From assembly GCF_004336635.1 (NCBI RefSeq), contig NZ_SJXH01000002.1, positions 1 through 64,000 of the forward strand: DNA of 64,000 nt, in the 5' to 3' direction. Shown in pieces: positions 29,679-31,222 of the stretch. Each line of letters starts with the position of its first letter. The first letter of the stretch is position 1. The position numbers were made by a program, and so were the translations under genes. Origin of the DNA: Acinetobacter sp. ANC 4862 (GTDB lineage: Bacteria > Pseudomonadota > Gammaproteobacteria > Pseudomonadales > Moraxellaceae). A model generated the notes under the pieces. That model did not search any database and was not told the DNA's origin. It saw nothing but the letters and a program-made list of their open reading frames with translations.

Positions 29679-30680
29679 ATGCAAACCAAAAGAAACATCT
29701 ACAAAGATTTTGAACATCCTTTTGCACAATATGTCCGTATTGTAGGTAAAGGAAAAAATGGTGCACGTTCGCTCAGTTATGATGAAGCCTATCAAGCCTT
29801 TAGCATGATCTTGAAAGATGAAGTGCTGGATGTTCAGCTGGGTGCTTTCTTAATGCTATTACGTGTTAAAGAAGAATCTGTAGATGAACTGGCCGGTTTT
29901 GTACAAGCCACCCGTGACCAACTCAATTTTAAAACCTTAGATGTCGATTTAGATTGGTCATCGTATGCAGGTAAACGTAAGCATTATCCATGGTTTTTAT
30001 TGGCAGCACTGACTTTGGCACAACAGGGTTATAAAATTGTCATGCATGGCGCATCGGGTCATACCATTAACCGTCTTTATACTGAACAGGTATTAGAATA
30101 CCTAGGTTACGCTATTTGCCAAAATGACACAGATGTGAAACAACAATTACAACAACGCAATTTTGCCTATATTCCTTTAGAAGTGATTTCACCCATCTTA
30201 AGTGACTTGATTGCCTTACGTAACGTGATGGGCTTACGTTCACCGATTCATACCCTAGCCCGTTTAATTAATCCCTTCAATGCCAAAGCAACGGTGCAAG
30301 CGATCTTCCATCCTGCCTATCGAACTTCACACCAGCAAGCGGCTTTTAAATTGGGTTATAAAAACAGTGCTGTGATTAAAGGTGAAGGTGGGGAATTTGA
30401 ACGTAATCCTGATGCTAAAACTTTAATTTGTGGCATTAAAAATGGCGAGCTGTACGAGCACGAATTACCTAAATTGACTGAAAACCGTAGCCCGATTGAG
30501 GAAGAACTGGATTTAGCGGTTTTTAAAGCAGTTTGGGAAGGCAAGCAAAGTCATGAATATGGTGAAATTGCAGTAACTGAAACCATGGGGATTGCTTTAT
30601 ATACCATGGGCGCTTGTGATTCTTATGATGAGACAATGTTAAAGGCCAAAGAGCTTTGGGCAAACCGAAAAGTTATTTAA
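29679..30680 (+). CDS. ybiB: YbiB-type protein (TrpD2 family)
   Basis: Homologue of anthranilate phosphoribosyltransferase that in E. coli YbiB binds nucleic acid instead of acting as an enzyme. It has 333 residues. The N-terminal helical domain is present (RSLSYDEAYQAFSMIL ... LGAFLMLLRVKEES). The glycine-rich PRPP loop is changed to HGASGHTINRLYTEQVLEYL and lacks the GTGGD-type motif of TrpD, supporting a non-catalytic role. The gene appears monocistronic; a complex inverted-repeat element begins 10 bp after its stop. Confidence 0.88.
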   Translation: MQTKRNIYKDFEHPFAQYVRIVGKGKNGARSLSYDEAYQAFSMILKDEVLDVQLGAFLMLLRVKEESVDELAGFVQATRDQLNFKTLDVDLDWSSYAGKRKHYPWFLLAALTLAQQGYKIVMHGASGHTINRLYTEQVLEYLGYAICQNDTDVKQQLQQRNFAYIPLEVISPILSDLIALRNVMGLRSPIHTLARLINPFNAKATVQAIFHPAYRTSHQQAAFKLGYKNSAVIKGEGGEFERNPDAKTLICGIKNGELYEHELPKLTENRSPIEEELDLAVFKAVWEGKQSHEYGEIAVTETMGIALYTMGACDSYDETMLKAKELWANRKVI

Positions 30681-30689
30681 TAGATTAAA

Positions 30690-30900
30690 GGGTCAGGCTC
30701 TGCGGAGTCTTAACGCTCATAATCGAATATTGGGAGCTCGTTGTGTTACTTTTTAAAAATGAGTAACACTGTTACGCAAGAAAACTTTTACCATTCGCAA
30801 AACTCGGCAAATACCACCGAGTATCATGTCTCTCGCAAAAACAGGACTATATTAATATAGTCCTGCCTCGAACAGTTGCGAATGGCTTTTCCGTGTAGCC
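30690..30900. other. Dense inverted-repeat element, possible structured RNA or repeat family
   Basis: Four perfect stems fill about 150 bp. Stem A is GTGTTACT (30743-30750) with AGTAACAC (30762-30769). Outer stem B is CCATTCGCAA (30791-30800) with TTGCGAATGG (30876-30885). Inside B lie stem C, ACTCGG (30802-30807) with CCGAGT (30817-30822), and stem D, a 24-bp perfect palindrome at 30842-30865 (half-site CAGGACTATATT). TCGCAAAA is also repeated directly at 30795 and 30833. B, C and D together predict a three-way junction. No open frame is present. It may be an RNA gene, a mobile palindromic repeat or a 3' structure of ybiB mRNA. Confidence 0.6.
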
Positions 30901-30946
30901 ATAATCAACTTTTATTTAAAGTTTAACTACTCAAAACAACCCATCA

Positions 30947-31222
30947 TTAGACGAAACGAATTGGCTTAAACTCTTCGTCTTGCTGCGGGTCATGTGAATC
31001 GCAGTGTTCATCTTCTTCTTTGGTTCCGCGGTCAATATAGCCACTACGTTCAGTTTCAGGCAAATTTTTCATTTCCCAAGCATAAACTGCCTGCATACAG
31101 GTTTGACGCTGCTCTTTGCTGAGCGCTACGCCATTTGGCCATTTACCAATTTCCACTGCTGTCTTTAAACGCGAAACAATTTCAGGATCGAGTACGGCCA
31201 GCATTTGTTCAATATTCATCAT
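30947..31222 (-). CDS. DUF1315 family protein (YeaC-like)
   Basis: 91 residues. The N-terminal half (MNIEQMLAVLDPEIVSRLKT, then EIGKWPNGVALSKEQRQTC) closely follows E. coli YeaC, the DUF1315 prototype of unknown function. The C-terminal part is acidic and His/Asp-rich (KEEDEHCDSHDPQQDEE) and less conserved. It begins directly at the end of nadK, so the two are translationally linked. Its role is unknown. Confidence 0.85.
   Translation of the reverse strand: MMNIEQMLAVLDPEIVSRLKTAVEIGKWPNGVALSKEQRQTCMQAVYAWEMKNLPETERSGYIDRGTKEEDEHCDSHDPQQDEEFKPIRFV

Follow-up and report, generated by a model that had tools for sequence, protein, structure and literature searches.

What is the dense cluster of inverted repeats that lies between two convergent genes, downstream of ybiB, in Acinetobacter sp. 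ANC 4862? The window, which is the whole stretch of DNA that was analysed (64,000 nucleotides of contig NZ_SJXH01000002.1), comes from a genome of 3.3 Mb, hereafter G000. A sequence-only reading had pointed to four perfect stems at 30690-30900, three of them nested into a predicted three-way junction, and had offered a structured small RNA, a palindromic mobile repeat and a recombination site as possible explanations. The features of the locus are as follows.

29679-30680, + strand: YbiB/TrpD2-like glycosyl transferase family protein, left convergent neighbour (NF006564, 452 bits over its cut-off)
30703-30899, + strand: core module of a dispersed repeat (CGGAGTCTTA ... CGTGTAGC), delimited by the homology limits common to three end types
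30743-30750 / 30762-30769, no strand assigned: arms of hairpin P4, 8 bp, modified here by a mini-hairpin
30760-30780, + strand: 21-nt mini-hairpin TGAGTAACACTGTTACGCAAG (TGAG-TAAC-ACT-GTTA-CGCAAG), from a stem rule and orthologue comparison
30791-30800 / 30876-30885, no strand assigned: arms of closing stem P1 of the three-way junction, 10 bp
30802-30807 / 30817-30822, no strand assigned: arms of inner hairpin V1 (ACTCGG/CCGAGT), 6 bp, from the fold
30842-30865, no strand assigned: perfect 24-bp palindrome V2, an inverted-repeat pair
30947-31222, - strand: DUF1315 protein, right convergent neighbour (PF07023, 107 bits)

A structured, non-coding element downstream of ybiB

All four stems were present at 30690-30900, and the three-way junction was reproduced by the predicted fold of the + strand, in which it is made from the closing stem, the palindrome and the inner hairpin. 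Folding was strong for RNA of the + strand (z -5.0), RNA of the - strand (z -6.0) and DNA of the + strand (z -4.9), and in each case none of 200 shuffles folded as well. The region had also been said to lack coding capacity, and indeed no open reading frame of 60 codons or more was found within 30690-30900. A search for an intrinsic terminator, defined as a GC-rich stem followed by a T run, gave no result in 30500-31100. The stem cluster is a real structure, and the homologous unit covers 30703-30899. With regard to the neighbours, the left one scored 174 bits against the YbiB model NF006005, which is under the cut-off of 185, and a NAD kinase gene lies beyond the DUF1315 gene.

The element belongs to a dispersed repeat family

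Whole-genome comparison of G000 revealed paralogous copies of the window element. A covariance model (R1) was built from 23 copies and matched the window copy with 115.1 bits (contig C12 of G000, 30731-30900). When up to 150 of the best candidates per genome were scored in G000 and six relatives, at least 10 copies were detected in G000 itself and at least 43, 22, 52, 42, 25 and 14 copies in G013, G059, G063, G093, G131 and G134, respectively. The sequence-only reading, which had been made to depend on such extra copies, therefore stands in this respect. Throughout the genus, at least 91 of 149 genomes matched the window element by BLAST (up to the best five candidates per genome scored) and at least 128 of 149 by the covariance model (up to the best 19 per genome scored). 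In a sample of 199 genomes of the family 67 matched, 13 of which lie outside Acinetobacter in six other genera, with weaker scores that were in some cases close to the threshold.

Searches of existing collections added little to this. At gathering as well as permissive thresholds, the only Rfam match at the element was to one snoRNA at E 3. Plasmid records searched with the window copy gave no match, and a copy from G059 matched, over no more than 53% of its length, four A. baumannii records, which are 1.0-4.1 Mb in size, though filed under plasmids. No description of this Acinetobacter repeat was found in the open-licence literature that was searched.

One core within three kinds of transposon ends

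Transposon ends of three kinds enclose a shared core of ~190 bp, which corresponds to window positions 30703-30899. This was seen in 83 copies with their flanks (18 from G059, 17 from G063, 20 from G093, 19 from G013, eight from G000 and one from G131), of which 31 carried IS4-type ends (type A, TAATGCCAGTCAGTTAAG), 17 type B ends (AACTGATGTTACGCA), 12 type C ends (AACGTCAGTTCGGGATAA) and 23 no recognised ends, while shuffled flanks used as a control yielded none. Paired terminal inverted repeats were present in 60 of the 83 copies, or in 54 under a stricter type B limit; several type B calls are weak (7-10 mismatches), and 11 remain under this limit. Inside the left limit of the core (CGGAGTCTTA) the consensus sequences of the types agreed at 10/10 (A-B), 10/10 (A-C) and 11/12 (B-C) positions, and inside the right limit (CGCGTATC) at 19/21, 18/22 and 19/24. 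Outside the left limit the corresponding values were 7/13, 11/24 and 5/14, and beyond the right limit 9/16, 8/24 and 2/16.

The end-bearing copies are short (286-336 bp, save two weak type B calls of ~400 bp) and contain no transposase gene. On visual inspection, many type B and type C copies showed repeats of 3-5 bp as candidate target duplications. Seven of the eight copies examined from G000 were without recognised ends, and this holds for the window copy, at which neither terminal repeats nor a target duplication could be recognised, so that its own mobility has to be read from its relatives. In type C elements the inner left arm (AAGTTATTGAA) is similar to the last codons of ybiB (30660-30690, AAGTTATTTAA). 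Judging from this resemblance, the element may have been the source of the gene end, or the likeness may be due to chance.

Plasmids were searched for an autonomous element with type B or type C ends and none was found. In addition, an end-pattern search for autonomous elements was carried out in eight plus two genomes and 20 regions were fetched; inspection by eye revealed no transposase between the paired ends of any of them. The 13 regions with IS4-type ends yielded more copies of the repeat, which either had additional mini-hairpins or were truncated or rearranged; one of these regions, L232, has a lone end next to unrelated genes. Of the seven type B regions, three (L239, L242 and L245) contained the core and two (L240 and L241) other cargo, L243 consists of two ends without the core motif, and L244 has no partner end. 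The cargo of L240 and L241, both located in G093, is also rich in hairpins and includes a mini-hairpin and CGGCGACATCCCTGTCGCC.

IS4-type copies are mobile and prefer terminators

Type A copies are mobile and prefer terminators, as is shown by their target duplications, the nature of the targets, an empty orthologous site and ends shared with an IS4-family insertion sequence. Target duplications of 10-14 bp were found at 22 of the 31 type A copies, compared with 4 of 930 mismatched flank pairs for which the same offsets were allowed; the other nine had no duplication by the rule used. Under a strict terminator rule, which calls for an A run, a perfect stem of 5 bp or more and a T run in this order, 13 of the 22 rebuilt targets passed, compared with 6 among 1474 other stretches of 55 bases taken from these loci. 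When halves of different targets were rejoined, 77 of 462 passed, so mixed halves often look terminator-like. Among the nine rebuilt targets that failed, L159, L219, L223 and L225 are terminator-like by eye and L217 and L218 are not.

At the orthologous site tested (L154), G059 harbors a 307-bp element between two copies of CTGCATGAAGCAG. The flank in G134 is 97% identical over 301 bases, and there the site is empty, with an intact, uninterrupted terminator (GCCTGCATGAAGCAGGC; AAAAAAGCCTGCATGAAGCAGGCTTTTTT). A plain terminator was present in 8 of 15 other loci at this site, and the rest showed a decayed terminator or other neighbours. These duplications and the empty site, which concern the subfamily with intact ends, together with the at least 10 copies in G000 and the matches in at least 128 of 149 genus genomes, bear out the earlier suggestion of a palindromic mobile repeat.

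The 18-base end consensus of type A is identical to both ends of an IS4-family insertion sequence (18/18, no mismatch). Full IS4-family elements with their transposase (NF033592) were located on two Acinetobacter plasmids (L367 and L368), each within a terminator and with a 12-bp duplication. In E. coli, an insertion of IS4 itself into the pheS,T attenuator has reportedly been observed. A match to the IS4 transposase was obtained in 20 of 149 genomes at 1e-30. There was no match to a transposase of this kind in G000, G059, G013 and G131, and copies in these genomes would therefore have moved in the past or by means of another helper.

Position of the copies and the ybiB site in relatives

The gene setting was determined for 43 copies with a simple ORF caller, not counting ORFs that lie within the element or within 120 bases of it; short ORFs counted as neighbours are possibly spurious. 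Copies lay between convergent genes in 19 cases and between divergent genes in two; the right-hand neighbour pointed at the copy in 33 and the left-hand neighbour in 27 of the 43, and one copy was overlapped by an ORF of 117 codons.

At the 30 best ybiB loci the family was present in 12, six in the window (+) orientation and six in the opposite (-) orientation, two of the latter being weak (36 and 30 bits). The remaining 18 loci gave no match at E 0.01, and several of these show just a terminator. This intergenic site (window 30300-30900; L081, L086, L087 and L089) is thus occupied in opposite orientations in different species, which may reflect separate insertions or an inversion.

In five same-orientation orthologues, 2-6 of the 96-98 core positions that could be aligned differ from the window copy, whereas identity at third codon positions in the terminal part of ybiB is 67-85% only. 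Since the core varies less than these codon positions, the comparison suggests that the window copy has been kept by selection after ybiB, for a single locus at which recombination could mislead. In G134, for instance, the DUF1315 gene is 92% identical, yet the third positions of ybiB agree in 67%.

Core stems change in pairs

In the 23-sequence alignment, changes on both sides were found in 8 of 21 pairs. In a larger alignment of 100 matches (89 distinct rows), which was fitted to the model, includes the model's own source sequences and hence favours structure somewhat, double changes occurred in 19 of 21 pairs (207 cells) and 97.7% of cells were paired; a comparable result was reached by neither the 500 shuffles nor any slid version. 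Covariation was seen in 9 of 10 pairs of family helix 1 (hairpin P4) and in 10 of 11 pairs of family helix 2 (closing stem P1). Compensatory changes in homologues, the second point on which the sequence-only reading had been staked, are therefore carried by this family. RNAalifold on the first core alignment recovered the closing stem alone.

In RNA genes, G-U pairs are common on the transcribed strand. Of 1805 pair cells analysed here, 1746 were Watson-Crick, 17 G-T, 15 A-C and 27 other, and there was no wobble excess in the stems on either strand. Paired changes without such a bias point to a constraint at the DNA level or to mutational copying of inverted repeats, and the constraint on the stems looks to be one on DNA.

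The history of the palindrome is informative in this respect. Its right arm (TAGTCCTG) is common to many copies and its left arm is not; in the window lineage the left arm has come to complement the conserved right arm exactly, and the orthologues in G013 and G131 carry one further change, which was made in both arms. Among the aligned copies, the perfect palindrome is restricted to ybiB-site orthologues (2 of 89 distinct rows, both from this site). A 5-bp version of the inner hairpin V1 was seen in five of the 89 distinct rows, three of which come from other loci. As to the core as a whole, its length is 185-197 bp in 73 of 80 copies, and it contains conserved unpaired boxes as well as two inner regions that drift freely between paralogues.

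The covariation could be purely mutational, with template switching between arms perfecting the inverted repeats and no selection on structure. The paired changes are nearly all from Watson-Crick to Watson-Crick, and the conversion of the left palindrome arm in the window lineage is what such copying would produce. On the other hand, the nearly constant length of the core, the conserved unpaired boxes and the low divergence at the ybiB site argue against it as the sole cause. We consider this explanation a serious contender, at somewhat below an even chance.

A structured small RNA or 3' UTR RNA, selected for its fold and spread secondarily by transposons, appears improbable. It would agree with the strong fold on both strands, the covariation, the low divergence of the core relative to third codon positions of ybiB, and two promoter-like matches that overlap the core. 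However, such matches numbered 3 in 600 bases compared with 1.0 (sd 1.4) in shuffles, two inner regions of the core drift freely, and the missing Rfam match, terminator-like site and G-U bias on either strand leave the small RNA that had been offered as one option for this locus without support. Nothing that was observed pointed to the recombination site.

An identity of the repeats with REP/REPIN-type palindromes, for which a Y1 tyrosine transposase (RAYT) would be the mover, is very improbable: although they are palindromic, intergenic and dispersed, and PF01797 gave four matches in G000 (one full length, two with a stop and one partial, on C55, C8, C40 and C3) and one in the high-copy genome G013, it was detected in 26 of 149 genomes and in none of G059, G063 and G093 with their at least 22, 52 and 42 copies, and single-strand Y1 transposition is not expected to give target duplications or IS4 ends, so that RAYT was rejected as the mover.

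Mini-hairpins are nested in the core

Under a stem rule that requires 4 bp, the mini-hairpin at 30760-30780 has no counterpart elsewhere in the window. It is present in G134 with one stem mismatch and missing from the four other same-orientation orthologues. Many copies carry interchangeable inserts of 20-21 nt (some longer) of the form TGAG-stem-loop-stem-CGCAAG in both orientations, which occur at a few recurrent places of the core (L234, L235, L236, L248 and the window) and by eye each replace ~7 bases. The sequence of their stems varies freely and the pairing is kept. Over 396 kb of fetched loci the stem rule gave 43 matches, at least two of them probably by chance. A subfamily (L003, L014-L017 and L021-L023) combines the left part of the window copy and the mini-hairpin with a different, shorter interior between the closing stems (68-69 nt where measured).

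Proposed explanation

The repeat is MITE-like, its general features being observed on relatives, though not on the window copy. We hold it to be quite likely that the window element is an old copy, its ends degraded, of a MITE-like, non-autonomous repeat of Acinetobacter and related genera, whose IS4-type relatives are put into terminators by a transposase in trans and whose stems are a matter of DNA. In this family a structured core of ~190 bp is framed by transposon ends, which are of three kinds. Insertion of the IS4-type element, largely into intrinsic terminator hairpins and with duplication of 10-14 bp, is probably performed in trans by an IS4-family transposase. Because of insertion into terminators, copies would come to lie in intergenic DNA at the 3' ends of genes, in many cases between a convergent pair, and there they presumably do least harm. 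The window copy occupies such a 3' intergenic place, into which it may once have moved as its relatives did. Its core stems would be held as Watson-Crick inverted repeats in DNA by arm copying during replication and by selection on DNA hairpins, most likely by a mixture of both.

This explanation accounts for recurrent hairpin-rich intergenic DNA in a medically and environmentally important genus. As the IS4-family element and its short derivatives aim at transcription terminators, their insertion may alter the ends of genes. Moreover, the family provides a natural data set of DNA hairpins that stay paired over a genus.

More tentatively, and with the odds rather against it, the core may be an independent passenger defined by its DNA structure, taken up by three kinds of ends, paired at the DNA level, colonised by mini-hairpins and selected in at least one place (after ybiB); it would then be hyper-parasitic or useful to the host and no remnant of a single insertion sequence. 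If true, a core travelling as passenger of unrelated transposons would be parasitism at a level that is unusual for short repeats of bacteria.

Comparison with known systems

IS4-family insertion sequences (NF033592; L367 and L368) have the same 18-base end consensus as type A, the commonest end type, and terminator targets with 12-bp duplications. In contrast to these, the repeat is without a transposase gene and its core is found in other end types as well. REPIN/RAYT systems are also palindromic intergenic repeats, but the present repeat differs from them by its inverted-repeat ends and duplications and by the missing Y1 transposase match in three high-copy genomes.

MITEAba12, the nearest case described, is likewise a short, non-autonomous, transposon-derived repeat of Acinetobacter; it differs by its length of 111-114 bp, its ends in common with ISAba12, its 9-bp duplications and a weak predicted fold, and no trend in target sequence was found there (PMC6382973). 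In a table of that source, related insertion sequences have GGCTTTGTTGCACAAA (PMC6382973). Insertion into intergenic palindromes is also described for the REP-targeting IS1397, ISKpn1, ISPsy8 and ISRm22, of which ISRm22 belongs to the IS4 family and inserts into REP elements and ISPsy8 enters the symmetry axis of the hairpin (PMC1525189). The targets of those elements are REP copies (PMC1525189), whereas the present repeat mostly hits intrinsic terminators, which vary in sequence. BOX, RUP and SPRITE of pneumococcus and ERIC are dispersed intergenic repeats with nested insertions as well, and a core common to unrelated end types is not mentioned for them in the portion of the source that was seen, a distinction made by description and not by sequence (PMC10969869). 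What distinguishes this repeat from other MITEs is a structured core common to different ends, combined with a preference for terminators and with nested mini-hairpins.
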